DNA from: a virus
Direction: 5' to 3' (one strand)
DNA length: 34,455 nucleotides
Virus record (IMG/VR): IMGVR_UViG_3300025162_000116
Span: 1-34,455 of that record
Part shown: in pieces, positions 1 to 28,848 of the stretch
Position numbering within the stretch: the stretch's first letter is position 1
How the letters are laid out: every line of letters begins with the position of its first letter
Translations under genes and position numbers: made by a program
The notes under the pieces: generated by a model
Databases searched by the model: none
What the model saw: the letters and a program-made list of their open reading frames with translations, nothing else
What the model was told of the DNA's origin: nothing

Positions 1-1730
1 TGCAGATAAGCTTGATGGACAACATGGAACATACTATACAGCAAATTCTATATTTGCGGCACATACCTCTAATGTAGCAAATCCACATGCAACCACTGCT
101 CTTCAGGTTGGTCTTGAAAATGTCACGAATGAGTCGAAGGCAACACTGTTCACAAACCCTGCATTCACAGGAAACGTATCAATAACTGGACTTCTTCAGG
201 TTACTTCGAATACACTTGTGACCAACCTGAATGCCGATTTCCTTGATGGACAACATGGAACATACTATACAGCAAATTCTATATTCGCTGACCATACGGC
301 AAACGTCTCTAATCCACATGTAGTAACTGCTACACAAGTTGGTCTTGAAAATGTCACGAATGAGTCGAAGGCAACACTGTTTACATCTCCTACGTTTACT
401 GGAGTCACAACAACAGCAAATACTTTTACATCAACTGTTGCTTCAGGTAATGCACCTTTCGTCGTGACCTCGAACACATTGGTCACTAACCTTAACGCTG
501 ATTTACTTGATGGTCAACATGGTTCTTATTACACAACTGCTAATAACCTAACAGGAACTATACCTTCAGCAGTTTTACCAAATTCTGGGGTTACGGCTAA
601 TACATATGGTTCTTTAATCGCAATTCCTGTAATTACGGTTGATGATAAAGGTATAATAACTTCAGCTAACACAATTGCAGTTAATATATCAAGTAGTGCT
701 ATAACTTTCATTGGTGATGTTACAGGAAGTGGTACAACAGGTGCTAACACAACGTTGACACTCACTGATAGTGGAGTTACTGCTAATACTTATGGGTCTT
801 CAACCGCAATTCCTGTAATTACTGTTGACGCTAAAGGAAGATTAACTTCAGCCAACACAGTTGCAGTTAATATACCAAGTGGTGCTATAACTTTCATTGG
901 TGATGTTACAGGAAGTGGCACAACAGGTGCTAACACAACGTTGACACTTGCTAATAGTGGAGTTTCTATAGGAACTTATAATAATGTTACGGTAGATTCA
1001 AAAGGAAGAGTTACCGCTGGTGCAAATACAGCATATATAACAGGTATAACATCAGGAAATGTTACAACTGCACTTGGGTTTACACCTTATAATAATACAA
1101 ATCCTGCTGGATACATTACAGGTATAACATCAGGAAACGTCGTGACTGCACTTGGGTTTACACCTTATAATGCAACAAATCCTTCTGGATATATAACAGG
1201 AATAACATCAGGAAACGTCGTGACTGCACTTGGGTTTACACCTTATAATGCAACAAATCCTTCTGGTTACACGACAAATGTAGGAACTGTAACTTCCGTA
1301 TCAGGTACAGCACCTATATCAGTAGCGACAGGAACATCAACACCTGCTATATCGATGGCGGCAGCTACAGCTTCGGTTAATGGTTACATGACCTCAACTT
1401 ATGCCTTGAAGTTAGATGGTATTGCCGCAGGTGCAACAAACAATATAGGAACTGTAACTTCTGTAGGAGGTACAGGAACAGTTTCAGGAATTACATTGAC
1501 TGGTACGGTAACTGGATCTGGTAATTTGACACTTGGTGGAACCATTGGGACATTAAACCAAGATACAACAGGTAGTTCGGCTAGTTGTACTGGAAATGCT
1601 TCTACAGCAACAGATGCAGATAAGCTTGATGGACAACATGGAACATACTATACAGCAAATTCTATATTTGCGGCACATACCTCTAATGTAGCAAATCCAC
1701 ATGCAACCACTGCTCTTCAGGTTGGTCTTG
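1..1730 (+). repeat. 116-bp exact direct repeat inside the fibre gene (1-116 and 1615-1730)
   Basis: Bases 1-116 are identical to 1615-1730; a third, diverged copy starts near 236. The unit encodes the LDGQHGTYYTANSIFA segment and what follows. Identity at the DNA level over this length suggests recent duplication or gene conversion, and it offers a substrate for homologous deletion or expansion of the shaft. Confidence 0.9.
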
Positions 1731-2017
1731 GTAATGTAACAAATGAGTCGAAGGCAACACTGTTTACATCTCCTACTTTTACTGGAATTCCATTATTATC
1801 CCAATCCCCTAATACAGGTGACTATAATAAAACGATTCCTACAACTTCCTTTGTCAATCTCGCAACAAGACAGGAACTTAAAAAAACAAACCAAGGATAT
1901 GGGTGTGTTTGGAATCAAGTAGCGGATACTTATGTTACAAGAGGAACTACCTATCAAAGCTATGGATATTCATGGAATCAGTCTACTGATGTATATACAA
2001 CAATCCTAACAAATTAA
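2..2017 (+). CDS. Tail fibre protein, C-terminal 671 residues (5' end outside window)
   Basis: The frame is open from base 2, so the gene enters from the left; the internal ATG at 218 is not its start. The product is low-complexity, rich in Thr, Asn, Gly and Ser, and built from fibre repeats. LDGQHGTYYT occurs three times, each followed by a PH...LQVGL(E/G)NVTNESKATLF segment in two or three copies. Three 26-residue copies contain ALGFTPYN, and there are two GDVTGSGTTGANTTLTL blocks. Such motifs are typical of trimeric beta-rich shafts of T4-like and other phage fibres. The last ~60 residues have two YGxxWNQxxDxY(T/V)T units, perhaps a tip or an attachment for the next protein. It lies 27 bases upstream of the DGR target, so the two are probably co-transcribed and may act together at the fibre tip. 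The fibre role is firm; the exact T4 counterpart cannot be given. Confidence 0.85.
   Translation, partial: ADKLDGQHGTYYTANSIFAAHTSNVANPHATTALQVGLENVTNESKATLFTNPAFTGNVSITGLLQVTSNTLVTNLNADFLDGQHGTYYTANSIFADHTANVSNPHVVTATQVGLENVTNESKATLFTSPTFTGVTTTANTFTSTVASGNAPFVVTSNTLVTNLNADLLDGQHGSYYTTANNLTGTIPSAVLPNSGVTANTYGSLIAIPVITVDDKGIITSANTIAVNISSSAITFIGDVTGSGTTGANTTLTLTDSGVTANTYGSSTAIPVITVDAKGRLTSANTVAVNIPSGAITFIGDVTGSGTTGANTTLTLANSGVSIGTYNNVTVDSKGRVTAGANTAYITGITSGNVTTALGFTPYNNTNPAGYITGITSGNVVTALGFTPYNATNPSGYITGITSGNVVTALGFTPYNATNPSGYTTNVGTVTSVSGTAPISVATGTSTPAISMAAATASVNGYMTSTYALKLDGIAAGATNNIGTVTSVGGTGTVSGITLTGTVTGSGNLTLGGTIGTLNQDTTGSSASCTGNASTATDADKLDGQHGTYYTANSIFAAHTSNVANPHATTALQVGLGNVTNESKATLFTSPTFTGIPLLSQSPNTGDYNKTIPTTSFVNLATRQELKKTNQGYGCVWNQVADTYVTRGTTYQSYGYSWNQSTDVYTTILTN
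1034..1267 (+). repeat. Three tandem 78-bp repeats in the fibre gene
   Basis: Copies at 1034-1111, 1112-1189 and 1190-1267 each encode 26 residues of the form Y-I-T-G-I-T-S-G-N-V-V-T-A-L-G-F-T-P-Y-N. Copies two and three are nearly identical at the DNA level. They form a modular part of the fibre shaft. Confidence 0.88.
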
Positions 2018-2044: not shown

Positions 2045-3106
2045 ATGCCATATCTAGATGTACATGATTCCTGTAAGATAGTTTTACTACAGCCAGGAAA
2101 TGAAAATTACCCTCAAGAGCTTGACCGATATAATTATAATCTTTATGTCAATGGAGGTGCTACGGATTTAACTGGTGCAGGAGGTAATGTGATGTTGCAG
2201 ATTCCAAAGTTTTATTATAAATATTCTTTTGGTTCAAATTCACATAATTACGATATTTCATTAGAGAAAAAGCCAGGATATGAGACTCATCCTGCTTTCT
2301 ATAAAAATGGGGTATGGGTAGATTATAGATATATTGGAGTTTATCAAGCATCAGGATGGACATCATCATGGCAACAAGGAGATGGAACTAATGCATGGTT
2401 TAGTACTTCTACAGGAAAACTTGGTTCGGTTGCTGGATATAAACCATTAAGCAATTTCAGCAGACCTAACTTCAGGGCAGCGGCAGCAAGAGTTGGTTCT
2501 GGTTGGCAGTTGATTGACTTTTGGCTATATGCAGCTGTGAAGATGCTTTACATTACCAAACATGGAAACTTTAATTCCCAAACAACTCTTGGTGGAGGTA
2601 ACACGAAATTTGCTGGATGGTCATTTGCCGCTGATGTTTCTGCTACAGGAAAGGTGAAATCTATAACAGCGCCAGGACAATCTACAGCAGGTGGTAATAG
2701 TGGTGATTATGTAAACTTCATGGGAATAGAAGATATATTCGGCCCTATATGGCAGTGGGTAGATGGATGGAACGTGAATAATGGTGTAAACTATGTTTGT
2801 TCTAATCCAACTAATTTTGCTGATGATACTACCACAAACTATACTTTATTTGGTTCAACTAATCCTTTAGCTGCTGGATGGCAAGAAACCCTACAATCAA
2901 ATATAGGTTTTCTTCCTGCTACTGTTGGAGGTTCTGGGAGTGATGTTGCAAGGATTACAGATTACTACTACTATACCGCAGGTTGGGTTGCTCCGCTTGT
3001 GGGTGGTGATGCGTCTTCTGGTTCGTATTGCGGTCTCTTCGATCTCTATGCGGCTCTTGCGGCTTCGTATGTGACTTCGGATATCGGTTCCCGGTTGTGC
3101 TTTTAA
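2045..3106 (+). CDS. DGR target protein with C-type-lectin-like fold, putative receptor-binding fibre tip
   Basis: This 353-residue protein resembles formylglycine-generating-enzyme/C-type-lectin DGR targets. It has aromatic, Gly-rich segments, the core-like stretch GIEDIFGPIWQWVDGWN near residues 228-244, and a C-terminal diversified segment ending SDIGSRLCF. Residues 315-353 are encoded by the variable repeat, whose non-mutated twin lies 203 bp downstream. Diversified residues fall at Asn-derived positions of the template, as in Mtd-type ligand-binding faces. No promoter is seen between it and the fibre, so read-through is likely. The expected role is host-receptor binding at the fibre tip, with tropism varied by the retroelement. 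The start at 2045 follows an A-rich leader. The DGR link is certain from the sequence; the exact ligand is unknown. Confidence 0.92.
   Translation: MPYLDVHDSCKIVLLQPGNENYPQELDRYNYNLYVNGGATDLTGAGGNVMLQIPKFYYKYSFGSNSHNYDISLEKKPGYETHPAFYKNGVWVDYRYIGVYQASGWTSSWQQGDGTNAWFSTSTGKLGSVAGYKPLSNFSRPNFRAAAARVGSGWQLIDFWLYAAVKMLYITKHGNFNSQTTLGGGNTKFAGWSFAADVSATGKVKSITAPGQSTAGGNSGDYVNFMGIEDIFGPIWQWVDGWNVNNGVNYVCSNPTNFADDTTTNYTLFGSTNPLAAGWQETLQSNIGFLPATVGGSGSDVARITDYYYYTAGWVAPLVGGDASSGSYCGLFDLYAALAASYVTSDIGSRLCF
2986..3106 (+). other. DGR variable repeat (VR)
   Basis: These 121 bp align without gaps to the template repeat at 3189-3309. I count 18 differences. Seventeen are at template adenines (of 27 adenines in the template) and change to G, T or C. 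The other is G3041 opposite T3244. The changes cluster in the first two positions of AAT codons, giving D, S, S, Y, Y, A, L, Y, T and D where the template encodes Asn. The final bases TGCTTTTAA are identical in both, consistent with an initiation-of-mutagenic-homology end. Confidence 0.96.
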
Positions 3107-3123
3107 TTGAAAACGAAAACGTT

Positions 3124-3142
3124 GGGTGGGCTTGTCCCACCC
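3124..3142 (+). other. Hairpin just downstream of VR, probable DGR homing structure
   Basis: GGGTGGG and CCCACCC form a 7-bp GC-rich stem around a 5-nt CTTGT loop, starting 17 bp after the end of VR. No such hairpin follows TR. In the Bordetella phage DGR an inverted repeat placed just past VR stimulates target recognition, and its absence beside TR keeps TR from being a target. The lack of a following T-run argues against a simple terminator. Confidence 0.7.
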
Positions 3143-3155
3143 CGAAAACAAACTT

Positions 3156-3163
3156 TATAAATT
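3156..3163 (+). promoter_or_regulatory. Late-like promoter upstream of the template repeat
   Basis: TATAAATT matches seven of eight bases of the T4 late octamer and ends 25 bp before TR. It could give a separate TR RNA. Transcripts from the fibre operon could also read through. Confidence 0.4.
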
Positions 3164-3188
3164 TAATGGTAAATATGTATCAACCGAT

Positions 3189-3309
3189 GGTTGCTCCGCT
3201 TGTGGGTGGTAATGCGAATAATGGTTCGAATTGCAGTCTCTTCTATCTCAATGCGAATAATGCGGCTTCGAATGTGAATTCGAATATCGGTTCCCAGTTA
3301 TGCTTTTAA
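3189..3309 (+). repeat. DGR template repeat (TR)
   Basis: This 121-bp non-coding twin of VR reads, in the matching frame, as repeated AAT codons among GCG, TCG and GGT codons. AAY codons can become about 15 amino acids by adenine changes without giving a stop. It lies between the VR hairpin and the reverse transcriptase, the usual VR-TR-RT order. Codon TAT at 3244 faces GAT in VR and is the only site where adenine mutagenesis of the present TR cannot explain VR. Confidence 0.96.
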
Positions 3310-3423
3310 ACCACAGAAAATTGTTCTTATACACATTTACCACACCACTGGGTGAAACACATAACATAACGGTCTCTTAATGGTTGGTAAGGAAACTGAA
3401 TATCATGAGACTAAAAGCACAAA
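3310..3423 (+). ncRNA. TR-RT spacer, presumably part of the DGR template RNA
   Basis: This stretch holds no ORF. In studied DGRs the RNA downstream of TR is structured and is bound by the RT complex for cDNA priming. Here GTCTC (3372-3376) can pair with GAGAC (3407-3411) just before the RT start. That is weak evidence for structure; the functional role is by analogy. Confidence 0.45.
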
Positions 3424-4446
3424 ATGAAACGTTACAACAACTTATACATAAAAATTTGTTCATATGAAAACCTTTTTCTTGCCCACGAGAAAGCAAAAAG
3501 AGGAAAATCACATTACAAAGAAGTACAAAGAATAGATAGTGACCCAGAGAAATATTTATTAGAATTACAGAAAGATTTACAAAACAAAACATACAAGACC
3601 AGCAAATATGAGATAGAAGAACGAGTAGAAGGTAGAAAGTTACGCACTATTTGTAAACTCCCATATTATCCAGATAGAATAGTACATCACGCAATAATGA
3701 ATATTGTTGGTGAACTTTGGGTAAAAACTTTAATTAGTGATACATATCAGTCGATAAAAGGAAGAGGAATACATTTAGCAGTAAAAAGAATAAGAAAAGC
3801 ATTAGATGAGAATAAAGTAGAAATCAAATATTGTCTAAAGATTGATATTAAAAAGTTCTATCCTAATGTGGATAATGAGATACTAAAGAAGATTATCAGG
3901 AAGAAGATAAAAGACCCTGACTTACTTTGGTTACTTGATGAGATCATAGATTCCATTTTAGGTCTTCCAATAGGAAATTTTCTATCTCAGATATTTGGAA
4001 ATCTTTATCTTTCAGATTTCGATCATTGGATAAAAGAAGTTAAGGGCATTAAGTTTTACTATAGATATTGTGATGACTGTATATTTTTATTGGATTCAAA
4101 AGAAGAGTTGCATAGGCTAAGAGTTGAGATAAGCGAATATTTGGGTTCTAAATTAAAATTGGAAGTAAAAACTGATTGGCAAATATTCCCAATAGATTCG
4201 AGAGGAATAGATTTTATTGGCTATAGATTTTTTACTACTCATACATTACTCAGGAAATCTATAAAGAATAATTTTACACACAAAATAAAAGTAATTAAAA
4301 AAGATTGGGAAGGTATGAATTCTTTTCAAATTATAAATACAATTATGAGTTATGTTGGGTGGATGAAATATGGGAATTGTTTTAATTTAAACATACAACA
4401 TATCAATAACGATATTAAATTTATAATGGAATTAAAAAAGATATGA
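3424..4446 (+). CDS. DGR reverse transcriptase
   Basis: The 340-residue protein is a group-II-intron-related reverse transcriptase of the DGR type. Visible motifs are the palm segment KIDIKKFYPNVD with catalytic Asp141, the DGR hallmark GLPIGNFLSQ at 180-189 (where retroviral RTs have QGxxxSP) and YCDD at 215-218. The N-terminal RxxxxRTICKLPYYPDRIVHHA segment also fits this family. It copies the TR RNA into cDNA with adenine-specific errors, and the cDNA then replaces VR. There is no thumb/maturase extension or endonuclease domain, as expected. The start at 3424 follows an A-rich leader with no clear ribosome-binding site. Its stop overlaps the next start (ATGA), implying translational coupling with a probable partner. 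Confidence 0.95.
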   Translation: MKRYNNLYIKICSYENLFLAHEKAKRGKSHYKEVQRIDSDPEKYLLELQKDLQNKTYKTSKYEIEERVEGRKLRTICKLPYYPDRIVHHAIMNIVGELWVKTLISDTYQSIKGRGIHLAVKRIRKALDENKVEIKYCLKIDIKKFYPNVDNEILKKIIRKKIKDPDLLWLLDEIIDSILGLPIGNFLSQIFGNLYLSDFDHWIKEVKGIKFYYRYCDDCIFLLDSKEELHRLRVEISEYLGSKLKLEVKTDWQIFPIDSRGIDFIGYRFFTTHTLLRKSIKNNFTHKIKVIKKDWEGMNSFQIINTIMSYVGWMKYGNCFNLNIQHINNDIKFIMELKKI

Positions 4447-4736
4447 AAAATTTTTGTGATTTCGCAGAAGCAGAAGGTCACGTGGTTGGTGAAAAAATAA
4501 AAATTGAAGAGGTGATAAACAAAGAAATTTATTTGACTGGATATGTTATAAAGGAAAGTATATATAATAAAAATAAATCTGGGAAATATTTAACATTAGA
4601 ATTTACTTTAGATAATCAGAAACATATTTTATTCACAGGGTCTGACGTACTCATAACGCAACTAGAAAAATATCATAAAGAAATACCATTCAATACCATT
4701 ATAAAAAAGATAAATAAATTTTACACCCTAACATAA
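4443..4736 (+). CDS. Small protein coupled to the DGR RT, candidate accessory factor
   Basis: This 97-residue protein starts inside the RT stop codon (ATGA overlap). It has no helical-bundle character and does not look like Avd, the usual 120-130-residue four-helix accessory protein, which I cannot find in this window. Its pattern suggests a small beta-rich, perhaps OB-like fold: alternating hydrophobic strands around KIKIEEVINKEIYLTGYVI and YLTLEFTLDNQKHILFTGS, then a basic end KKINKFYTLT. Such a fold could bind the TR RNA or single-stranded cDNA. This is inferred from position and composition; I do not recognise the family with certainty. Confidence 0.75.
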   Translation: MKNFCDFAEAEGHVVGEKIKIEEVINKEIYLTGYVIKESIYNKNKSGKYLTLEFTLDNQKHILFTGSDVLITQLEKYHKEIPFNTIIKKINKFYTLT

Positions 4737-4748
4737 ATTTAAATCATA

Positions 4749-4967
4749 ATGACATCAGAAGAAAAGAAGATTTACTATAATAATCTAATACAGACACAAT
4801 ACAACGGTAAATCCAATATGGATTCTATCATCCAATATGTAGAGTTTGATGGTGGTTTCTGGGTATATACAAACCATCAAGAAGTAACACATGCAGACAT
4901 GGGTGGATTAGAAAGGATTTCATATCTTGCTGATGCAGAGTGGGTTGCAGAACTTTTAAAACCATAA
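4749..4967 (+). CDS. Hypothetical protein, 72 residues
   Basis: An acidic small protein begins MTSEEKKIYYNNLIQTQYN and ends with ADAEWVAELLKP. The start lies 12 bases after the previous stop, within the same plus-strand run as the DGR genes. The middle segment YVEFDGGFWVYTNHQEVTH is aromatic and may form a small beta sheet. I see no signal peptide, membrane segment or metal-binding motif. It could be a cargo gene of the DGR region or an unrelated phage gene. Function unknown. Confidence 0.6.
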   Translation: MTSEEKKIYYNNLIQTQYNGKSNMDSIIQYVEFDGGFWVYTNHQEVTHADMGGLERISYLADAEWVAELLKP

Positions 4968-4974
4968 TAATAGT

Positions 4975-5076
4975 ATGAGTTATATTGGAAATGATCCAGC
5001 ACTTAGAACGATTGCAATTAATCCTCCTGTTGAAGTACTTGAATGGCCATTAAAGCCTAATACAATTTGGTTTTAA
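4975..5076 (+). CDS. 33-codon ORF, probable N-terminal fragment of a structural protein
   Basis: The ORF begins MSYIGNDPALRTIAINPPVE and ends at a TAA inside a recombination-looking patch. A start of the form M-x-Y-I-G-N-x-P is common at the N-terminus of phage fibre and other structural proteins, so this may be the first part of a lost fibre gene. It starts 8 bases after the preceding stop. Its 3' end overlaps, on the other strand, the end of a truncated P-loop gene, suggesting a deletion or insertion joined two gene remnants. It may be expressed but is unlikely to be a full protein. Confidence 0.45.
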   Translation: MSYIGNDPALRTIAINPPVEVLEWPLKPNTIWF

Positions 5077-5172
5077 TTTATAAATATAAGAAAACACAAA
5101 TAAATCTAACTGTTCGGATAGTGTTGTTTTTCCTGCCCCACTAAGTCCCATTACCAAAATTTTCTGTGTCAT
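5050..5172 (-). pseudogene. Truncated P-loop kinase remnant
   Basis: Reading leftwards from ATG at 5172, 40 codons begin MTQKILVMGLSGAGKTTLSE, a clear Walker A (GLSGAGKTT) in the N-terminal strand-loop-helix of small nucleotide or adenylylsulfate-type kinases. After about residue 22 the sequence loses kinase character and stops at 5050. Only the first tenth of a normal kinase is left. The leader is A-rich, like those of intact early genes. It lies alone on the minus strand inside a plus-strand late block, so it is a relic of rearrangement. Confidence 0.75.
5079..5086 (+). promoter_or_regulatory. T4-type late promoter
   Basis: Perfect TATAAATA on the plus strand, just after the 33-codon ORF and within the kinase remnant. 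It may drive the small gene at 5235 together with the next octamer. Confidence 0.6.
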
Positions 5173-5192
5173 AGTTTATTGTTTTAATGTTT

Positions 5193-5200
5193 TATAAATA
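5193..5200 (+). promoter_or_regulatory. T4-type late promoter for the gene at 5235
   Basis: Perfect TATAAATA 34 bp upstream of ATG 5235. It lies downstream of the in-frame ATG at 5187, which would therefore be absent from this transcript. That decides the start in favour of 5235. Confidence 0.75.
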
Positions 5201-5234
5201 TAACTATAAGATATATCAATTCCAAATTATTTAT

Positions 5235-5411
5235 ATGATTACCTTCAAAGAATTTTTAAAAGAGGAGATGAACACGGGCGAGGTTCCTCTAACGCAGAAG
5301 GGTCCGTATAGGAATTCTGGTTTCAAAAATCCTATAGTGATGAGAAGGAAAAGAAAGCCTCAGATTACCTTCGAGGAGTTCTTAACTAGGATGAAATCTG
5401 TACTTTTATAA
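5235..5411 (+). CDS. Small basic late protein, 58 residues
   Basis: The protein starts MITFKEFLKEEMNTGEVPLT and ends ITFEEFLTRMKSVLL. The centre holds a basic patch MRRKRKPQ. Two FxEFL segments, one at each end, may be a short repeated peptide; FxEFL-like N-termini occur in head and core proteins of T4-like marine phages, a weak parallel. It is preceded by a perfect late promoter and its stop overlaps the promoter of the next gene, so it is a late, probably virion-related product. The ATG at 5187 was rejected because it lies upstream of the promoter octamer. Confidence 0.6.
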   Translation: MITFKEFLKEEMNTGEVPLTQKGPYRNSGFKNPIVMRRKRKPQITFEEFLTRMKSVLL

Positions 5412-5414
5412 ATA
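5407..5414 (+). promoter_or_regulatory. T4-type late promoter for the gene at 5432
   Basis: Perfect TATAAATA overlapping the stop codon of the previous gene, 17 bp before ATG 5432. Confidence 0.75.
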
Positions 5415-5431
5415 TATAAAAAGATATAAAT

Positions 5432-5740
5432 ATGAACAACCAGAAATATCATTTACAGAAAAGTAATTTCCTTGGTGGATATGCTTTACACAATCATGCC
5501 AATGGTGCTGTATCGTCTTCGATTGTATGGTCTGTTCCAATTGATGCAAACACTTCTATTATAAGAATGTATTCAGATAATTTTGTATTTGCAAAGTATA
5601 ATGGGACTGCTAATTCTTCCTTTTACGATTACTTCATTCCTGGTAATACTGCAGTTGATATATACAACATACCACTAGCCAACACAATATCATTTATAGC
5701 AGATTCTGCTAATGCTTCAATTAAAGTTACACAGTATTAA
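5432..5740 (+). CDS. Putative small structural protein, 102 residues
   Basis: The sequence is rich in Asn, Ser, Ala and Tyr with alternating hydrophobic residues (SSSIVWSVPIDANTSIIRMY; NTISFIADSANASIKVTQY). This suggests one beta-sandwich domain with no signal peptide or membrane helix. It has its own late promoter and sits directly before a large fibre gene, fitting a fibre-connector or virion decoration protein. Codon use and composition match the flanking fibre genes. I do not recognise the family; the structural role comes from context and composition. Confidence 0.65.
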   Translation: MNNQKYHLQKSNFLGGYALHNHANGAVSSSIVWSVPIDANTSIIRMYSDNFVFAKYNGTANSSFYDYFIPGNTAVDIYNIPLANTISFIADSANASIKVTQY

Positions 5741-5788
5741 GGATTAGAAATTTAGATTTTATAAAAAATTAGGATTGTTTCTGGTATA

Positions 5789-5796
5789 TTTAAATA
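5789..5796 (+). promoter_or_regulatory. Imperfect late promoter for the large fibre gene
   Basis: TTTAAATA matches seven of eight bases of TATAAATA and ends 17 bp before ATG 5814. The same spacing is seen at 5407-5432. Confidence 0.5.
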
Positions 5797-5813
5797 TAAA
5801 ATTATCATAATAC

Positions 5814-8800
5814 ATGTCACTCGGAATAACAAATTCTCCTGGGTTATCTGAACAGCAAATAAAAGAATTAATTGCTGTTACTCCTGAACTCTTTGCCAAT
5901 ACAGACTTCATCTATGGGATAACGCCAAATACAAATATTTCTATTCTCCCAAGTGGGAATGGTTCTGTTTATATGCCTTCTATCACACTTCCAGTTGGTA
6001 ATGTTATAGAAGAGGTAATACCTGTTGAGATTATTGTGGCAGATTTGCTTTTAGATATGTTAATATTAACAAGCAATAGTTTGATTCTTAGTGCAAACTC
6101 ATATGGTCCGAATTATAGCACAAATCCACCTTGGACAGTTTATAGATTCACCACAACACCTTCACCAGTGTTGGAAATAGATGATGTTATAACAGGCATA
6201 GCTATACCAAATCCAAGTACTGTAACTTATATAGGAACTGATGCATATTCTAAGTATGTCATTGTTGATACCTCAACTGAAGGTCTTCCAGTACAGCCAG
6301 AAGCCAACACAACTATATATATTACTCGACCTGTAGAAATTCCAGGATTTTCTATATCAACTATAGCAAATACGAATATTGTACTCCATCCAGGAGATAA
6401 CGGAAACATCATCACCCATAACAATATAATACCAGCAGATGACGTTTTATATGATTTAGGAAGTCCTAGAAGAAGGTTTCATAGATTGTACTTAGGTGGA
6501 GGAACTATTTACATCCTCGACGAAGTTACGAATGTTGATTTGGGTATTGGTGCAAAAAATGGTAATTTTTACGTTAAAGGTGTAGCTGGATTTGAGGTTG
6601 GTGAGTTTGCTTTCAATGATAATAGAATGACGATGACCGATCTTACCGAAGATCTTGAGATAGGTACTCTTGGAGCAACAGGACGTGTTGTATTTAATCG
6701 TGATATTTACATTGGCGGAGAAGCAATTCGTTTCTCAGATAATACCTTCATAACTACTGCTGGAGTGAAAAGTGTTAGAGCTGGTTCTGGTATTACCAAT
6801 TCTGGGAACACTTCAGACCCACTTCTCGAATCGACAGGCGTTGAATCAATCACTAGCACTTCCAATAATAGAATTATAGTAACAAATTTAGATAAAGATA
6901 TAACAATTGATCTTCCACAGGATATAGCCAAAACATCTTCTGTTGAATTTACTAACCTTAAGATTACAGGTATTCTTAATGTTACAGGAAATACGGTTTC
7001 TACTCCTACCATTTTATCAGCAAATACTGTATTATATCTTGGTGCAAATTCACATTCCTATGCAGAAATTCAGGGTGGTGGTATAATTCTAGGTGCAAAT
7101 AGTCATGTATCTTTCTTGTATGACAACACTTCGAATAATAACAGATGGGATACAGATGGTGCTGGACTTAAAACTCTTAATCTTGTAGCAGGAGACTCTA
7201 CTGTTTCTACGTTAACAGTAACTGATACTGCGAGATTTGGTGCAGGAATAACTAACACAGAATACATAAATGCGGTTATACAAATAGATTGTAATGCGAA
7301 TACTTATAATCAGGTGATTCACCAAAACCATTCTGATGAATCAAATGCTTCCACAGACTTTGTTGGTATCAATGATAAAGGAAATGATGGGGAAAACTAC
7401 ATTGACCTTGGTATAAACTCTTCTAACTATTCTGATCCAGACTATACCATTGGTGGTCCTAATGATGGTTATCTTTATGTGAATGGTGGAAACTTAACCA
7501 TTGGAACAGATACCTTTGGAAATACTATCATTTTCCATGTTGGAGGAACATATGCCAATAATCAAGTTGCAAGAACTACAACTGACGGTAGATGGTTATT
7601 TGGAGATGATACCATAGTAGACGATGGAACTTCAGAAATTGTAGTCCAAGGTAATGTAAAAGCTACGAATTTCCTTGGGAATCTTTATGGAACAGCGAAT
7701 CTTGCGATATCTGCAAATAATGCAAGTTATCTAGATGGTCAACATGGAGCATATTTCTATGCCGCATCAAACCCAAATAATTACATCTCGTCAATAACCT
7801 CGAATAATGTTGTGGATGCACTTGGATACACACCTGTTTCTACACTCCTTACGGTTGGTGGTCATGCTCTTACTTCAAACGTAACACTCTCTAAATCCGA
7901 TGTGGGTCTTTCAAATGTAGATAATACTGCTGATAGTGTAAAAGCTGTAGCAACTGCAAATTCTGCAAGTTATGCACCATATGCTGGATTAACTGGAACC
8001 GTTACTACGTGGAACCAGAACACTACAGGTAGTGCGAACAATGCCACATATTTAAATGGTCAGTTAGCTTCTTTCTACTATCCTGCATCCAATCCTAATG
8101 GATACAGCACAGGAACTATAAAAACAGTTAATGGAACTACAAACCAGATAACGTCAACTGCAAATTCAAGTGTTGCAACACTAAGTCTTCCAAGTTCTGT
8201 GATAATGCCAGGGTCTTTGACATTATTCTCAGGTAATACTACGATTGCTCCACTTACATTCGTTTCTGGAACAAATCTTGCAACAGCAGTGGCAGGTGCA
8301 TTAGAATACGATGGAAAATCTTTCTACGGAACTCCATCTGGTACACAGAGAGGGTTAATTCCTGTAGAACAAACATACATCACTACAGGAGATCGTACAT
8401 TATATGCAAACACAGCACCTTGTAGTGTATTTGGAAAGAGTGTTACTTTAAGCTCTGCGACAAGATATGCATATGAAATCATTGCTAATCTAACCAAAGC
8501 TGGCACTAACAAAGACTTAAGTTATGGTATTTCGGTTGGAGGTTCTGGAGTTTTAGCGGCACATTCTTATAACTCTACTTATATCACATCTGCTACTTCT
8601 AGAGTAACTCTTGGAAGTGGATTTAGCATGTCCAATTTCATCACAACAAACTTTGCTACACCAGTTAAAATTGCAGCATATGATGACAAGTACATGACGA
8701 TTACAATACGTGGGATAATCGATGTTACAACTGGTGGAACAATTACACCGCAATTTACTGTTAGTGCAGGAACTGATGCCCACACACTTTACGCTTACAG

Positions 8801-8864
8801 TAGGATGAGGATTTATGCGGTGGACGGTATTAGTGCAAACACTTCGATTGGAACGTTCCAGTGA
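5814..8864 (+). CDS. Large tail fibre protein, 1016 residues
   Basis: A long, beta-rich, Asn/Thr/Ser/Gly-rich fibre protein. The N-terminal ~200 residues repeat short NTNI(S/V)L-type units. Near residue 210 is YDLGSPRRRFHRLYLGGGTI, a motif common in fibres of T4-like phages. Mid-protein segments carry LDGQHGAYFY and ALGYTPVS repeats like those of the fibre at the window's left edge. The C-terminal ~150 residues, from about YEIIANLTKAG to MRIYAVDG, look like a compact jelly-roll head domain, a likely receptor-contact tip. It has no variable repeat, so this fibre is not a DGR target. It is expressed from a late-like promoter. Its 3' end overlaps the tail of the convergent endonuclease gene by 35 bp. 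Confidence 0.88.
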   Translation: MSLGITNSPGLSEQQIKELIAVTPELFANTDFIYGITPNTNISILPSGNGSVYMPSITLPVGNVIEEVIPVEIIVADLLLDMLILTSNSLILSANSYGPNYSTNPPWTVYRFTTTPSPVLEIDDVITGIAIPNPSTVTYIGTDAYSKYVIVDTSTEGLPVQPEANTTIYITRPVEIPGFSISTIANTNIVLHPGDNGNIITHNNIIPADDVLYDLGSPRRRFHRLYLGGGTIYILDEVTNVDLGIGAKNGNFYVKGVAGFEVGEFAFNDNRMTMTDLTEDLEIGTLGATGRVVFNRDIYIGGEAIRFSDNTFITTAGVKSVRAGSGITNSGNTSDPLLESTGVESITSTSNNRIIVTNLDKDITIDLPQDIAKTSSVEFTNLKITGILNVTGNTVSTPTILSANTVLYLGANSHSYAEIQGGGIILGANSHVSFLYDNTSNNNRWDTDGAGLKTLNLVAGDSTVSTLTVTDTARFGAGITNTEYINAVIQIDCNANTYNQVIHQNHSDESNASTDFVGINDKGNDGENYIDLGINSSNYSDPDYTIGGPNDGYLYVNGGNLTIGTDTFGNTIIFHVGGTYANNQVARTTTDGRWLFGDDTIVDDGTSEIVVQGNVKATNFLGNLYGTANLAISANNASYLDGQHGAYFYAASNPNNYISSITSNNVVDALGYTPVSTLLTVGGHALTSNVTLSKSDVGLSNVDNTADSVKAVATANSASYAPYAGLTGTVTTWNQNTTGSANNATYLNGQLASFYYPASNPNGYSTGTIKTVNGTTNQITSTANSSVATLSLPSSVIMPGSLTLFSGNTTIAPLTFVSGTNLATAVAGALEYDGKSFYGTPSGTQRGLIPVEQTYITTGDRTLYANTAPCSVFGKSVTLSSATRYAYEIIANLTKAGTNKDLSYGISVGGSGVLAAHSYNSTYITSATSRVTLGSGFSMSNFITTNFATPVKIAAYDDKYMTITIRGIIDVTTGGTITPQFTVSAGTDAHTLYAYSRMRIYAVDGISANTSIGTFQ

Positions 8865-10065
8865 TATTTTTATTAAGGTATTCCAATATCATATTTTCCT
8901 GAGATATATGTAATGTTTCACTGTGACCACCACTAAACATTATCTCAGGCTTGTAATAGATAAACTGATTTTTTATTTTTTGTTCTAAATCCACAACAAC
9001 ATTAGAATTTCCTTCCCATTCGTAAAGTGTTTCTCGATTATACGGCATACTCTTTTTGTGGTTATATCTTTCATCAACGGTCTTAGAAGTAATCCCAATC
9101 TTTAGAAATGTTTCAAATTCATTAAAGCATTTTAGTAAATATATAGTAGCGATATCATATTTCTCCTCAAATCTTATGGCATTCAATCTTCTTTGGTTTT
9201 CCAATTTACAAAAAGGACAACCTTTTCCAGATAAATGATTATCTGGTGTCTGTTCAAAATCATTTCCACAGATATTACAATGAATCCATATTTTTGTTGC
9301 GGAATTTATATAGAAAGATTCTATATAATTATAGTGTATCCTATTTTGTTCAAATTTTTCATATACTTTAATTATAAAATTTTCTTTATCAGAAGTTCGG
9401 GAAATCCTTCGTTTTTCTTCTCCGCATTTTTTACATCCTCTTCCAGCTAAATGATCCACTGGATTCTGGTTAAAATAATCACCACACTTCTTACAATAAA
9501 TCTCCACAGGAGTTTTCATATTTTTATAAACCACATTCCAATACCCATATTCATCTTTTGGATGCACTATTTGAAATCTTATAATAATTTCTTCTTGTGT
9601 TTTTAAAGAATTTTTAGCACATATAGAACAACCACAACCTCCCAAATGGCTAGCAGGTCTTTGTGAAAAATAGTTACCACAAACATTACAATAAATCTCC
9701 ATTGGAGTTTTTGAATTTACATAAATAGATTTTATATAATCAAATTTTATTTTCCTATCTGGAAATTTCTTATAAAGTTTTATAAGAAATTTCTCTTTAT
9801 TTGAAATATATAATGCTCTTTTTTTATCATCAGAACAATCTTTACAACCATGACCTGCCGAGTGATGATCTATTCTTTGATTAAAATATTTTCCACATTT
9901 CTTACAAAAAATTTTAACTGGAGTTTTAGAGCCTTTATAGATAACATTCCAATAGCCGTAATTATTTTCAGGATGTGCTTCATTAAATCTTCTTATAATT
10001 TCTTCTTGAGTAAGACGAAGTTTAATATAAATAGGTGTAGGAGTAGAATCCTTTGTGTCTGACAT
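8830..10065 (-). CDS. Free-standing GIY-YIG-type homing endonuclease with four zinc-ribbon repeats (HEG1)
   Basis: The 411-residue protein has four tandem CxxC...H...GxGCxxC modules of the DUF723-like kind (residues ~45-280), for example CKKCGKYFNQRIDHHSAGHG and CNVCGNYFSQRPASHLGG. These are followed by a C-terminal GIY-YIG/T5orf172-like nuclease domain with ATIYLLKC, FLKIGITSKTVDERY and a later acidic DLEQKI. The C-terminal half is close to the protein at 13284. Such proteins cut a site in phages lacking the gene and spread by repair. It sits between a plus-strand fibre and the minus-strand helicase and overlaps the fibre 3' end by 35 bp. It has its own late promoter and a structured leader shared with the other two free-standing endonucleases. 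The nuclease call is good; its target is unknown. Confidence 0.85.
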   Translation of the reverse strand: MSDTKDSTPTPIYIKLRLTQEEIIRRFNEAHPENNYGYWNVIYKGSKTPVKIFCKKCGKYFNQRIDHHSAGHGCKDCSDDKKRALYISNKEKFLIKLYKKFPDRKIKFDYIKSIYVNSKTPMEIYCNVCGNYFSQRPASHLGGCGCSICAKNSLKTQEEIIIRFQIVHPKDEYGYWNVVYKNMKTPVEIYCKKCGDYFNQNPVDHLAGRGCKKCGEEKRRISRTSDKENFIIKVYEKFEQNRIHYNYIESFYINSATKIWIHCNICGNDFEQTPDNHLSGKGCPFCKLENQRRLNAIRFEEKYDIATIYLLKCFNEFETFLKIGITSKTVDERYNHKKSMPYNRETLYEWEGNSNVVVDLEQKIKNQFIYYKPEIMFSGGHSETLHISQENMILEYLNKNITGTFQSKCLH

Positions 10066-13283: not shown

Positions 13284-14051
13284 ATGTTAGACAGCTCTAC
13301 CTCTATTTATAAGCCTCGTTATTCCAATAAAAAATCCACAACAGAAGAATTTATAGAGAAAAGTAAAACAGTTCATGGTAAAGAAAAATATGATTATTCT
13401 AAAGTTGATTATAAAACTGCCCATAATAAAGTAGTAATCATTTGTCCAATTCATGGAGAATTTAACCAAACTCCAAGTTCTCATTTATCTGGGCGAGGTT
13501 GTCTAAAATGCAAAGTTGATGGAGATAGGTCATCAACAGAACAATTTATAGAGAAAAGTAAAACAGTTCATGGTAAAGAAAAATACGATTATTCTAAAGT
13601 TGATTATATTAATGCCCATAATAAAGTAGTAATCATTTGTCCTATACATGGAGAGTTTGAACAAATTCCAAATAATCATTTATCTGGGCGAGGGTGTTCT
13701 TTTTGTAAAGCAGAAAATCAAAGAAGATTAAATGCTATAAGATTTGAAGATACATACGATGTCGCTACAATTTACCTTTTAAAATGTTATAACGATTCTG
13801 AAGTGTTTCTAAAGATTGGAATTACTTCAAAAACAGTAGATGAGAGATATCCAACTATAGAGAGGATGCCATATAAATACGAAACGTTATTTGAATGGAA
13901 AGGAGATTCTAAAACGGTAGTTGACATGGAACATAAAATTAAAAGTAAATTTACATACCATAAACCTGAGATAATGTTTGGTGGAGGACACACCGAAACC
14001 TTGTCTATATCTCAGGAAAAGGCTATAATGGAGTTTCTTACTATTCTATAA
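13284..14051 (+). CDS. Free-standing GIY-YIG-type homing endonuclease with two zinc-ribbon repeats (HEG2)
   Basis: The 255-residue protein has two DUF723-like modules with HGEF(N/E)Q(T/I)P...HLSGRGC. They come from a 195-bp tandem duplication that is still nearly identical at the DNA level. The C-terminal nuclease domain has ATIYLLKC, FLKIGITSKTVDERY and VDMEHKI, and is a close paralogue of the domain in HEG1, which has four modules. It sits in the opposite orientation between uvsX and the DUF3310 gene, whose 3' end it overlaps by 11 bp, as expected of a late-arriving free-standing homing gene. A late promoter, a structured leader and the N-terminus MLDSSTSIY are shared with HEG3. Confidence 0.87.
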   Translation: MLDSSTSIYKPRYSNKKSTTEEFIEKSKTVHGKEKYDYSKVDYKTAHNKVVIICPIHGEFNQTPSSHLSGRGCLKCKVDGDRSSTEQFIEKSKTVHGKEKYDYSKVDYINAHNKVVIICPIHGEFEQIPNNHLSGRGCSFCKAENQRRLNAIRFEDTYDVATIYLLKCYNDSEVFLKIGITSKTVDERYPTIERMPYKYETLFEWKGDSKTVVDMEHKIKSKFTYHKPEIMFGGGHTETLSISQEKAIMEFLTIL

Positions 14052-21164: not shown

Positions 21165-22022
21165 ATGTTAGACAGCAATTCTACTTCTATTTATATTCAC
21201 CAAGAAATCGAATTTCAAGTTCAGAATATTATTTCAGATTTTACTGAACAATTTAAACCTACCTATCTCTACGTCAAAAAATATTCCAAAACAGGGTTTA
21301 TGTATTTTGGTAAAACTACACAAACTGACCCGATTAAATATCTTGGTTCGGGAACACATTGGAAAAATCATTATAAAAAACATGGAAAAGATTTTATACA
21401 AAACGTATTTTTGAAATACTTTATCAATTTAGAAGAATGTGTTAGATTTGCTATTACATTTTCGGTTGAAAATAATATAGTAGAGTCTCCACATTGGGCA
21501 AATAAAATTGTAGAAGATGGTATAGGAATATTAGGAGGAGGTATGGAAGGAAAACACCATACAGAACAAGGAAAAATAAATATAGGAACTTCTCAACTTG
21601 GTAAGTTGAATCATATGTATGGAAAAATAAAAGATAAACATCATTTATATGGTTCAGGAAATATTATCGAACAATATTCATTAGAACATATATTTATCAG
21701 AGAAGGTTATAGTGTCGATTTTAAGGAATTTGGGTTTGAAATAAGAAATATAGCAAATTGTTGCAGAATGAAACGACCAACTTGTGGTGGTTATATCTTT
21801 AAATATAAAGGAGATTTAGAATTTATTTGGCCTAATCTTCTTCGAACTGGTAAAATAAGTAAAATTCGGGGTCAAATTATACAACAATATTCAACCACCA
21901 ACGAATTAATAGATGAAGGACTTAGTACACATTTTAAAGATTTGGGATATGCTACTAACACAATATATGAAGCTATAAAGACAGGTCGGATAAGAAATAA
22001 CAGTATTTGGAAATATAAATAA
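21165..22022 (+). CDS. Free-standing GIY-YIG homing endonuclease, Seg-like (HEG3)
   Basis: A 285-residue protein with an N-terminal GIY-YIG-like domain: YLYVKKYSKTGFMYFGKTTQ, then YLGSGTHWKNHYKKHGKDF, a pattern seen in SegA-type enzymes. NUMOD3-like short motifs GGGMEGKHHTEQGK and KLNHMYGKIKDKHH follow. Two NUMOD1-like DNA-binding repeats come next, IIEQYSLEHIFIREGYS...GGYIFKYKG and IIQQYSTTNELIDEGLS...NSIWKYK. It is unrelated in its main domains to HEG1 and HEG2 but shares promoter, leader RNA and the N-terminus MLDSNSTSIY with HEG2. It lies between the tail operon and gene 32, with a terminator on each side. It probably spreads by cutting this locus in related phages. Confidence 0.87.
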   Translation: MLDSNSTSIYIHQEIEFQVQNIISDFTEQFKPTYLYVKKYSKTGFMYFGKTTQTDPIKYLGSGTHWKNHYKKHGKDFIQNVFLKYFINLEECVRFAITFSVENNIVESPHWANKIVEDGIGILGGGMEGKHHTEQGKINIGTSQLGKLNHMYGKIKDKHHLYGSGNIIEQYSLEHIFIREGYSVDFKEFGFEIRNIANCCRMKRPTCGGYIFKYKGDLEFIWPNLLRTGKISKIRGQIIQQYSTTNELIDEGLSTHFKDLGYATNTIYEAIKTGRIRNNSIWKYK

Positions 22023-22064: not shown

Positions 22065-22653
22065 CTAAAATGGTAAATCTAGGTCGTCAAGATTGAGATT
22101 TACTTCTACTTCTTTCTTCTTTTTAGAAGGTGCTGAAGGAGTATAATCTTCCTCAGACTCTTCCTCCTCTAGTTCCGTTTCATAACTAACAGTAGTAGTA
22201 CCATTAACTCTGTCGTAAATCTCAGTGAGTTCTTTAAAACTCTTGAAACTTTCTGGAGCTATGAGTGCATCGAGACTATATGTAGAAGCCAAAATTTCAT
22301 CTACTTTTGCATCATCATCAGATATAGCCGAAGGCGATTCAAACTTCGAACTATCATAATTCCTCTGACCACTTACACTCTTTGCAAGTAGGATAAAGTT
22401 TCTACCATTATCAGGATCGAAAGGATTTGATGGTTTCTCTCTTACTGAAATTGGCTGAATTGCTTCAAAAATCTTTGCAAAAATCTTAGGGCCATACTCG
22501 AATAGGAAAACTTTCCCATTATTATCTGGATTAGATGGATCATCAACTACAAGAACATTCGAGTAATACTTATGATTCCTCTTTGTCCTCTCAGTTTTTT
22601 TCCTAGCAACTTCTTCTACATTGTTCTTCCAGATATGCCTGTTTGCATCACAA
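22065..22653 (-). CDS. 32: Single-stranded DNA-binding protein gp32, 3' exon
   Basis: This is the second exon of gene 32. It begins inside a Val codon and continues CDANRHIWKNNVEEVARKK, YYSNVLVVDDPSNPDNNGKV, LLAKSVSGQRNYDSSKFE and FKSFKELTEIYDRVNG, all matching T4 gp32 in order. It ends with the acidic tail EEEESEEDY...LNLDDLDLPF that binds partner proteins such as gp59. Joined to the first exon (278 + 589 nt = 289 codons) it gives 288 residues against T4's 301. The in-frame ATG at 22700 lies in intron sequence and is not a true start. The gene product coats single-stranded DNA in replication, recombination and repair. Confidence 0.9.
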
Positions 22654-22721
22654 CATTTGTGTTCAATTTGATTCGCAAAACCAAATTCGGGACTAACCAC
22701 GGCTACATATTTCTATGCAGA

Positions 22722-23765
22722 TCAGACTATATCACATACCATTTCTGGTACTCTCGCGCTTCCAGAGCCTATTGCAATTGCTCTGTACTCCTCTTCCAAG
22801 GATAGTCGTTGAACCTTCTCAAATACTTGAGCTTGGCTGCTGATTATCATATTTAAGAATTCCCGAAATACCATTTTATCTTTTTCTAATAGCGTTCTAT
22901 CTTTATTCAATTTCTTAATCACAAAAACAATATGAATGTATCCTTGTTTTATAGCATCTTTCTGATGTGTGATTATTTTTTTAGTATTCACACTAAAAGT
23001 GAAATCAGATTTAACTTCTATCAATAGATCAAACTTCTCTAAGTAAATATCTGGTCTATGATATCCACTTCTATTAATAGAGCTTATTATTCTTGGTATT
23101 TCTTTTCCATTTTTAATAGTAAGAGTCATGTCTTCGATTAAAAACCTTATAACCGAATCTTCATACCCTTGGCAAAAATACTCTTTACCTTCTGCAATTA
23201 TTTTCTTATTACAAGAAGCATAAAAGTTATATTCCATTGTGCCATTTTTAAGTTTTGTAGCATTTGTTTTCTCGACTAACAGTTTCTTTTCCTCTTCTGT
23301 TCGTCTTTGCCATTGTTTTTCAGTTTTCTTGGACATATAATCTTCTCCATATCTATTTTTATACGTCTGTAATCTTTTTTCATTCATTGCCCGTTTTTCT
23401 TCTTCGGACTTAAACGAGTTAGTTTTTGTTCGTTTTTCATTTGACGCTTTGATTTTTTCTTCTCTATCCTCACCTTTAAAACGATCACTAACAGCTACTC
23501 TTCTGATTTCTTTGGCTTTATTATTAGCACAAGCACTACAAAGTTTTTTATAACCTTCTACAATATTTTTGAATTTTGTTTCTGCCCCACATTCCACACA
23601 TCTACCACAAATATCTGTTTTATAAAATAAATCAAAGAACTGTTTTGCGGTATACTTGTTTCTTAAAGCATTCATCAACCCATGTATTGTAGAATAAGTT
23701 TTGCCATTCAATTGACAATAAAAACTTCCTTCTTTAAAATGGTCTTTACTATTAAAAATTTCCAT
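22722..23765 (-). CDS. Intron-encoded homing endonuclease, PD-(D/E)xK/Vsr-like
   Basis: The 347-residue ORF lies inside the gene 32 intron. The N-terminal part has a zinc-finger-like CGRCVECG...CSACANN unit. The middle is highly charged, with NUMOD-like EKRTKTNSFKSEEEKRAM and similar helices. The C-terminal nuclease domain reads YEDSVIRFLIED, then YHRPDIYLEKFDLLIEVKSD, the PD...ExK pattern of Vsr/EDxHD-type endonucleases. The last ~30 residues are translated from the ribozyme core: they span R, and the stop codon lies within S. It would cut intronless gene 32 copies. Its ATG follows a hairpin and a late promoter, as in I-TevI control. Confidence 0.83.
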   Translation of the reverse strand: MEIFNSKDHFKEGSFYCQLNGKTYSTIHGLMNALRNKYTAKQFFDLFYKTDICGRCVECGAETKFKNIVEGYKKLCSACANNKAKEIRRVAVSDRFKGEDREEKIKASNEKRTKTNSFKSEEEKRAMNEKRLQTYKNRYGEDYMSKKTEKQWQRRTEEEKKLLVEKTNATKLKNGTMEYNFYASCNKKIIAEGKEYFCQGYEDSVIRFLIEDMTLTIKNGKEIPRIISSINRSGYHRPDIYLEKFDLLIEVKSDFTFSVNTKKIITHQKDAIKQGYIHIVFVIKKLNKDRTLLEKDKMVFREFLNMIISSQAQVFEKVQRLSLEEEYRAIAIGSGSARVPEMVCDIV

Positions 23766-23799
23766 ACTTATAAGTTTATCTCACATATAAGTATTTATA
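23766..23799 (-). promoter_or_regulatory. Late promoter plus start-site hairpin of the intron endonuclease
   Basis: On the minus strand TATAAATA (23799 to 23792) is followed by ACTTATA (23792 to 23786), which pairs with TATAAGT (23772 to 23766) abutting the ATG. Long pre-mRNA can fold this hairpin and mask the start; RNA begun at the late promoter would start within or past the 5' arm and leave the start open. T4 I-TevI is controlled this way. Confidence 0.65.
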
Positions 23800-23889
23800 A
23801 AAACTTAAACTTAGACTTCCCAGACAATTCACGAAATTTTTCGACAGTGATTACTCACTGAAGCCGCTTGTTATGCAAAAGCAAAGTTA

Positions 23890-24167
23890 ACGGGACATTC
23901 TCCTTTAATTGTGGTAGGGCAACCTTCCATAAACCACTTCCCTGATGTGCCTTCAAATCCATGAGACCACTTCTCTACCCAACTTACACTTTCACCAGCA
24001 AACGGAGGAAGGAATCTTAGTACAGCTTCTCCATTTCCTAATTTATCTACAGTAAGTTTCCAAAGTCGATCATCACCATAAGATGTTTTCTTTGAATCAT
24101 CAATTTGTTTAGAGAGCACTTCAATTGACTGTTTGCTCTTTGCCCTTAGTTCTGTTAAATACGACAT
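23890..24167 (-). CDS. 32: Single-stranded DNA-binding protein gp32, 5' exon
   Basis: This is the first exon of gene 32, coding residues 1-92 and part of Val93. It carries the N-terminal basic start MSYLTELRAKSKQSIEVLSK (self-association), LWKLTVDKLGNGEAVLRFLP and the zinc region HGFEGTSGKWFMEGC. With the second exon the zinc ligands are His69, Cys83, Cys91 and Cys94, close to T4's His64, Cys77, Cys87 and Cys90. Read without splicing, the frame runs 17 bases on to a stop at 23871 and loses the last ligand. The leader AACAACTAAAACAAA resembles that of uvsX. The gene lies just after gene 59, as in T4. Confidence 0.9.
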
Positions 24168-28600: not shown

Positions 28601-28848
28601 AGAGCCTCAAATATACCTTCAATAGAATCCTCGATACCCATCGTAAAACATGAAGAAAGGGTTCCTTTTCTCTTTCCATTAGTATTACCGTTCATTAAAG
28701 TAGGGCTTGACGGAATAAATGTTTTTGATTTGATTGATTCTAAAGATGGTGGATAAATATGAGAAATTCGCTCCGCTAATTCTTCCCAACTATTTTCTGT
28801 TCCAAGATAATATCTTTCATGTAAAAGTTTTTCAATTGCTTTGTTCAT
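25621..28848 (-). CDS. nrdJ: Class II (B12-dependent) ribonucleotide reductase with in-frame intein
   Basis: A 1075-codon ORF; removal of a 325-residue intein leaves about 750 residues of adenosylcobalamin-dependent reductase. Visible are PSSPTLMNGN and the redox Cys67 in SSCFTM, then TKASGGVGYVFSNLR and SQGGSRKGAGMAQFNITHPD. SNP is joined across the intein to CAEF and ASCNLGSLNL, giving the N-x-C-x-E active site. PNGSISYLAGMLSGGIEPVY and the C-terminal zinc ribbon CPECG...CKSCGYSGCG typical of NrdJ follow. It makes dNTPs from NTPs or NDPs without oxygen dependence, replacing the NrdA/B type of T4. Activity depends on host cobalamin. Confidence 0.93.
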   Translation of the reverse strand: MNKAIEKLLHERYYLGTENSWEELAERISHIYPPSLESIKSKTFIPSSPTLMNGNTNGKRKGTLSSCFTMGIEDSIEGIFEALKEAALVTKASGGVGYVFSNLRSSNETIKTINRKSSGPIPFLKVFDKMLDGVSQGGSRKGAGMAQFNITHPDILSVIRLKETEGTLERLNISIRIPDQFYKDLKENPNEPHTCFDSEGLWCIIKDENGKVITNQDIWNEIIDKAWNSAEPGIFNIDIAHRQCTTTNLNDTVLSNPCQPAFATVLTPNGIRTIGEINIGDYIWSGKQFTTVINKWSTGSKSVYSYNTSTGSFIGTKNHRIVQNDEKIEVKDANSIDQCRVDQCRVLLDNGFDEKTIMDGLVIGDGTVHKASNNLVYLCIGENDSDYFNSEIKHLIIKDRRIAFKYGWEIDTTITYLELPRVEERIIPERYYKGNRKQILSFLRGLYSANGSICGNRITLKQSSLKLIKQVQEMLSFIGISSYYTINEPKNVVFSNGVYECKKSYDLNITQDRNIFNEKIGFIQSYKNEKVNQIINNIKERNYRKTTYDINSIDYLDEYEVFDLTVEAEEHTYWSGGLLVSNCAEFVNIPYASCNLGSLNLVNFVKEDRTFDFEKFDKEIRLATRFLDSVIDVNDYPLEKIKDVTLKVRPIGLGAMALGDALYKMRIPYNSDVAYQLVERLFFLLTMVSMHESIQMAKEIGESYPAFDYDLFIKANERFSMSNEIKEDLKKYGVRNSCFTSIAPNGSISYLAGMLSGGIEPVYALAYSRRIEKGNKDYEIVYIVDPVFDEYLKENYTNKIYLDILEKITKGNGSCQNIEEIPLEDRKVFITANDLIPTEHLKMLAIVAKNTSLSVSKTINMASTATKEDISEVYQKAHDLGVIGVTVYRDGCRQGILTTGTSKEEEVGSIKDNHAPKRPKKLQAHLYPITVKGNKFGVVVGMLQDRPYEVFAFVDSDNSVRHCNGELIKETKGRYTFVCEDIRIENIQLAGDAERAVTILASQLLRHGVPINNIISTIKKISDGITDFTTAVARVLTKYTKNGDETGDVCPECGTKIIFENGCKVCKSCGYSGCG
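27103..28077 (-). mobile_element. Intein with LAGLIDADG endonuclease in the ribonucleotide reductase
   Basis: Residues 258-582 of the ORF. The first residue is Cys258, in CQPAFATVLTPNGIRTIGE (block A). GTKNHRIV (315-322) is block B with its His. Two dodecapeptide motifs are IMDGLVIGDG (357-366) and FLRGLYSANG (442-451). YEVFDLTVEAEEHTYWSG is block F and GGLLVSN block G, ending in Asn582. The +1 residue is Cys583, which becomes the reductase's catalytic cysteine. The penultimate residue is Ser, not the usual His. The second dodecapeptide has Asn450 where an acidic residue is usual, so cutting activity may be weakened. Confidence 0.92.
27812..27841 (-). repeat. 15-bp tandem duplication inside the intein
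   Basis: ACCCTACATTGATCT occurs twice in a row, encoding (I/V)DQCR twice. It keeps the frame and lies between the splicing block B and the first endonuclease motif, a tolerant linker. Confidence 0.9.

Follow-up and report, generated by a model that had tools for sequence, protein, structure and literature searches.

A diversity-generating retroelement in a T4-type phage, with a structured spacer RNA and an OB-like candidate partner protein in place of a detectable Avd

INTRODUCTION

Retrohoming by diversity-generating retroelements (DGRs) has been worked out mainly in BPP-1, which needs Avd. In this temperate podophage (Brt/Avd/Mtd), the template repeat (TR) lies upstream of the reverse transcriptase (RT) gene, TR and variable repeat (VR) differ specifically at adenines, and the VR, at the 3' terminus of the gene for a lectin-fold tail protein, is followed by a hairpin (PMC3240598). 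Such hairpins or cruciforms have stems of 7 to 10 bp and GRNA loops and are found 4 to 34 bp after the VR (PMC3240598). The lineage-3 DGR of crAssphage LMMB has the order target-VR-TR-RT and a lectin-type VR, and it lacks Avd (PMC7290462). The archaeal virus ANMV-1 also has a DGR, and a figure of the paper on it labels an Avd ORF in that element (PMC4372165). A review (PMC10053308) credits Wu et al. 2018 with proposing a protein that accompanies DGRs and belongs to no Pfam family.

Here we describe a DGR in a viral DNA fragment of 34,455 nucleotides (IMG/VR record IMGVR_UViG_3300025162_000116), called the window below. The locus resembles that of BPP-1 in the place of the TR, in its adenine-specific TR/VR differences, in a VR at the 3' end of a predicted lectin-fold gene and in a candidate hairpin after the VR, and it resembles the crAss-like lineage-3 DGRs (crAssphage LMMB and cr7_1) in gene order, in its lectin-type VR and in the lack of Avd. 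A DGR as such is of a known kind; the combination of an Avd-less RT with an OB-like protein and an RNA is a lesser-known variant.

RESULTS

The features of the locus are collected in Table 1. The original prediction was of a gap-free, 121-bp alignment of VR and TR in which 17 of 18 differences fall at template adenines. Re-alignment returned exactly the same coordinates and the recount the same numbers; the probability that at least 17 of 18 differences fall on 27 adenines among 121 positions is 6e-13 (hypergeometric). The sole non-adenine difference is T3244 of the TR, which is G3041 in the VR. TR and VR differ in 14 codons. Adenine changes in the body of the repeat account for 11 of these (10 AAT and 1 AGT), the T>G change accounts for one, and the remaining two are at the 3' end. 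The adenine differences at 3093 and 3097 fall within the last 14 bp of the repeat, where the VRs of relatives have a constant base opposite the template A; at the CAG/CGG site, this base is G in most of them. Because this VR/TR difference is constant in most relatives, the two differences look like IMH/IMH* and should not be counted as random mutation, leaving 15 adenines that are plausibly hypermutated, spread over 11 codons. A>G was the commonest adenine change in the TR/VR counts. Counts pooled across loci came from a scan that favors A mismatches and were therefore left out as proof of adenine specificity.

Table 1. Positions of the features of the DGR locus in the window.
Feature	Position	Strand	Evidence
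Tail-fiber gene preceding the target (its 5' end is not within the window)	2..2017	+	PHROG tail fiber/collar matches
Target gene (353 aa), its C terminus formed by the VR; fold predicted as C-type-lectin/FGE-type	2045..3106	+	phrog_5302, AF2, Foldseek
VR	2986..3106	+	TR/VR alignment
3' constant end of the VR, IMH-like (G/G vs A/A in the TR)	3093..3106	+	Same fixed difference in most relatives
Inverted repeat GGGTGGG/CCCACCC, 5-nt loop CTTGT, candidate retrohoming hairpin/cruciform	3124..3142	.	Base shuffles
TATAAAT late-promoter-like site, 26 bp before the TR	3156..3162	+	TATAAATA and TATAAAT excess
TR, 27 adenines	3189..3309	+	TR/VR alignment
Structured spacer RNA, RT-17-like	3338..3424	+	Rfam RF03020, covariation, covariance model
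Spacer helix P1	3343-3346/3351-3354	+	As for the spacer RNA
Spacer helix P2	3372-3376/3407-3411 and 3380-3384/3402-3406	+	As for the spacer RNA
DGR RT, 340 aa	3424..4446	+	RVT_1, phrog_1423, 8ub7
OB-like partner protein, 97 aa, phrog_19665 family	4443..4736	+	RT linkage, AF2, structural match to RTs

The RT frame is intact and contains the DGR motifs GLPIGNFLSQ and YCDD, as had been predicted. The protein matched the Pfam family RVT_1 (E 1e-13) and phrog_1423, annotated as reverse transcriptase (E 1e-115), and its best solved relative by sequence was 8ub7 (E 5e-38), which we take to be the Bordetella DGR RT complex. The element is without doubt a genuine DGR. It had been called complete, which holds for RT, TR, VR and target; Avd was not found, since no ORF scanned in 2045-8864 gave an Avd-like Pfam match at E up to 1 and the 97-aa ORF that follows the RT is predicted to be beta-rich, not the helical bundle of a BPP-1-type Avd. 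The RT is approximately 33% identical to that of the BPP-1-related phage BIP-1, and 43 to 54% identical to those of the crAss-like lineage-3 DGRs, which belong to phages of a different order. Judged by RT similarity together with gene order, the Avd-less arrangement agrees with that of lineage 3, known from crAssphage LMMB. A search of viral_contigs with the exact TR stretch yielded no nearer relative that could show VR variation in this very phage.

The predicted position of a lectin-like target gene 3' of a fiber gene was borne out by PHROG matches and by modeling. The target matched phrog_5302 (tail protein, E 4e-61), and Foldseek searches with its AF2 model (pLDDT 84.9) returned Thermus TaqVP (5vf4, E 3e-12) and Bordetella Mtd (1yu3, E 2e-4) as the best folds, followed by formylglycine-generating enzymes. 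The VR thus forms the 3' end of a gene for a predicted lectin-fold protein. A 7-bp GC-rich inverted repeat, never equaled in 300 base shuffles, starts 17 bp after the VR, with a loop of 5 nt where that of BPP-1 is a 4-nt GRNA. As a strong hairpin follows the VR in only 7 of the 38 flanks tested, the window included, its use in retrohoming is uncertain. We rejected a role for it as a terminator, as a T-run is missing.

We then compared VRs between related loci, which are numbered with an L prefix. L003 and L004, the nearest relatives of the window (58% RT identity), share an overlap of 2,196 bp in which only the VR varies: it contains all 22 differences, 20 at TR adenines and 2 that are T>G. 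Eleven groups of loci with the same TR contained 218 variable VR positions, 200 at adenines and 18 elsewhere, and T>G made up 14 of these 18 (binomial P ~9e-11, against 1/9). The T>G of the window lies in the context TTCTATCT, which recurs in L011 and, slightly altered in its flank, in L004; we rejected simple noise as its source, since it fits the pattern of the lineage. In cDNA terms, T>G is a C placed opposite U, and A>G is a C placed opposite A. In a survey of DGRs, template thymines changed mostly to C (PMC6642488), and a T>G bias would therefore be special to this lineage. The excess might also stem from sequencing or assembly error or from selection, outside the mutagenic process, as the numbers are small, some T>G in the wider set represent a fixed 3' position and codon selection could recur at one site. 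However, a preference for T>G is not expected from random error, and L079 and L080, although they agree in all 8,010 bases that lie outside the repeats, have 23 VR differences, 4 of them T>G. We consider such an origin rather unlikely and retain T>G as a candidate product of the mutagenic process.

The spacer between TR and RT scored 32.0 bits against Rfam RT-17 (RF03020), below the cut-off of 40.4, with the same hairpin in the same place before the RT; the cut-off was passed in the relatives L005, L009 and L056. Compensatory changes affected seven of the nine predicted spacer pairs in the aligned relatives, and in the longer stem all four Watson-Crick combinations occurred at one pair, a signal confined to the proper register. 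From 37 sequences we built a covariance model, which gave 45 matches (E up to 1) across 68 sources. All but one of these matches, 44, came from the 67 loci besides the window (600 kb); most of those loci were outside model building, and some were the same contigs as, or near copies of, ones used for it. The matches lay directly before the RT wherever its start is known. A second search found a match at all 34 other RT loci, several of them used in model building, including that of cr7_1, which thus has the same spacer RNA as the window. The most fitting view of RT-17 is therefore that it forms the 3' portion of the template RNA of DGRs.

The last part of the element, which had been delimited to position 4736, includes the 97-aa ORF; the original prediction was silent on it, and we found it linked to DGR RTs. 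Its ATG overlaps the RT stop codon (ATGA). The protein itself had no Pfam or PHROG match, and comparisons with Pfam and with PDB sequences gave nothing convincing. A homologue is encoded in 51 of 81 RT loci, window included. Among 41 aligned homologues, 36 directly matched phrog_19665, whose function is not annotated, and the window protein is connected to this family only via them. The AF2 model (pLDDT 88.9) has the order beta-beta-beta-alpha-beta-beta, like an OB fold; against PDB folds it gave no significant match, only weak OB-type ones. Its best viral structural matches include RT proteins, such as the RT of the crAss-like phage cr7_1, the frame of which runs on past an in-frame TAG. Unlike in the window, the RT protein of cr7_1 thus seems to include an OB-like fold itself.

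It may be that this ORF is a mere neighboring late phage gene with no DGR role, as it is missing from approximately 30 of the 80 nearest RT loci, some of which have a different small ORF of tail-assembly-like type in its place. This is difficult to reconcile with scans by the partner protein alone, performed with a 7-row alignment because the 41-row one was too diverse. In viral contigs, 80 loci were found in this way, 78 of them with a DGR RT in the vicinity. The two exceptions are L108, which ends at a contig edge, and L115, which is truly without RT in its available flank. In bacterial genome contigs, an RT was present at 8 of 8 loci, one of them only partial. The linkage spans bacterial phages and archaeal viruses, with the family found 3' of the RT in ANMV-1 and vir525. 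The ANMV-1 element, although from an archaeal virus, has the window's order through to the OB-like ORF, and its VR differences number 17 at A and 0 at other bases. The position of the partner gene flips between downstream of the RT and the VR-TR gap; some dozen loci have it 5' of the TR, the slot of avd in BPP-1. The partner is fused to the RT in L030 (one contig, assembly as deposited). Those data, together with the structural match to the cr7_1 RT, make a mere neighbor improbable. We infer that the protein is a nucleic-acid-binding companion of the RT and that it may stand in for Avd.

The presence of the partner on the RT tree is patchy, which makes its loss or replacement likely, and its absence from many of the nearest RT loci indicates that it is not universally needed. 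Eight loci with no OB-like gene (L008, L009, L011, L017, L020, L022, L047 and L074) often have another ORF of ~100 aa after the RT, with the pattern RPE...Y...A..I...Y, which resembles the small ORF after the RT of cr7_1 (L171). The DGR-linked protein of Wu et al. 2018 may be the partner described here. Given that protein and the Avd ORF drawn for ANMV-1, we claim its novelty with reserve.

The assignment of the fragment to a T4-like phage was confirmed by T4 core replication genes, a baseplate hub and late-promoter signals. As in T4-type myoviruses, the window encodes UvsX, UvsY, a gp41/DnaB-type helicase, a gp59-like loader, gp32 and a gp26-like T4-type baseplate hub, in addition to a protein of the RNase H-like exonuclease family and a tail-tube-like protein. 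The capsid and terminase genes lie outside this 34-kb fragment. The window proteins are only 35 to 44% identical to those of named phages, UvsX reaching 39 to 44% among the matches listed. We counted 22 copies of the T4 late-promoter word TATAAATA in the window, against 6.3 expected, and TATAAAT is found 15 to 80 nt before gene starts at 8 sites, against 1.3 expected. No gene begins shortly after the TATAAAT site that precedes the TR, and this placement suggests late synthesis of the TR-RT transcript.

None of the listed records of RT-bearing phages, which are part of 151, was of a T4-sized phage, the largest being Psychrobacillus phage Perkons (137 kb). A gp32 search of related contigs gave no match, and neither did the controls. 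The IMG/VR contigs of L070 and L072 carry the T4 major capsid gene (gp23) together with a related DGR. The loci L068-L072 represent a second T4-type lineage with a DGR. In L072, TGA stands at tryptophan positions in target and RT, suggesting a recoded phage, and contigs that are otherwise nearly identical show VR differences at TR adenines.

The gp32 gene is split (22065-24167, minus strand), with the N-terminal part at 23871-24167 and the C-terminal part below ~22700. An endonuclease-like ORF (22722-23765), preceded by a late-promoter-like site, lies between them. At 22703-22918, a match to a group I intron scored 43 bits, against a cut-off of 50; the split is likely due to such an intron and its homing endonuclease. 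The gene for the ribonucleotide reductase large subunit (25621-28848, minus strand) carries a LAGLIDADG intein. By eye, the ORFs at 8830-10065 (minus), 13284-14051 (plus) and 21165-22022 (plus) resemble further homing-endonuclease-type genes, two of which share a C-terminal stretch. A small Ala/Lys/Val-rich ORF (33941-34138, minus strand) has a signal-peptide-like start and no clear family.

DISCUSSION

The anatomy of the locus, the fold similarities, the linkage of its genes, the covariation of its RNA and the population-level VR variation in relatives lead us to regard it as an intact Avd-less phage DGR, in which the TR and spacer RNA, the RT and the OB-like protein rewrite the tip of a lectin-fold protein (probability of about 0.75). 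That the cassette is an inactive relic, with RT, TR and VR intact and a VR no longer mutated in this phage, is quite improbable: the phage is represented by a single contig and has one non-adenine TR/VR difference, but every ORF is open, the RT motifs are intact, the differences are otherwise adenine specific, the TR is uneroded, close relatives vary in the VR only, and the exception is a T>G, a change that the lineage also makes.

If the intact DGR is active in this phage today, as we infer, its transcript would probably start at the late-type promoter before the TR and comprise the TR and the structured 3' spacer RNA, and extend through the genes for the RT and the OB-like protein. Anchored on the spacer RNA and probably assisted by the OB-like protein, the RT would copy the TR into cDNA and misread adenines, and rarely uridines, yielding T>G. 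The cDNA would then replace the VR, helped by the constant 3' end and perhaps by the hairpin. Up to ~11 codons would be changed at the C-terminal tip of the lectin-fold tail protein. This may affect receptor binding and, as originally proposed, could allow a change of receptor during lytic growth.

We tentatively propose, as a possibility with slightly less than even chances, that DGRs regarded as Avd-less use a dedicated OB-fold partner, as a gene or as an RT domain, together with a common structured RNA, the orphan RT-17, in an Avd-independent retrohoming machine, and that their RT misreads uridine as well, leaving T>G as a by-signature. This large lineage, which includes bacterial phages and archaeal viruses, would then gain a candidate for the missing protein, a defined scaffold of RNA and a by-signature of mutation, each open to tests in vitro. 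Such a DGR in a T4-type phage lies outside the phages whose DGRs are described in the literature cited here, and an almost unstudied partner and a conserved structured RNA are found beside the same kind of RT in dozens of other viruses.
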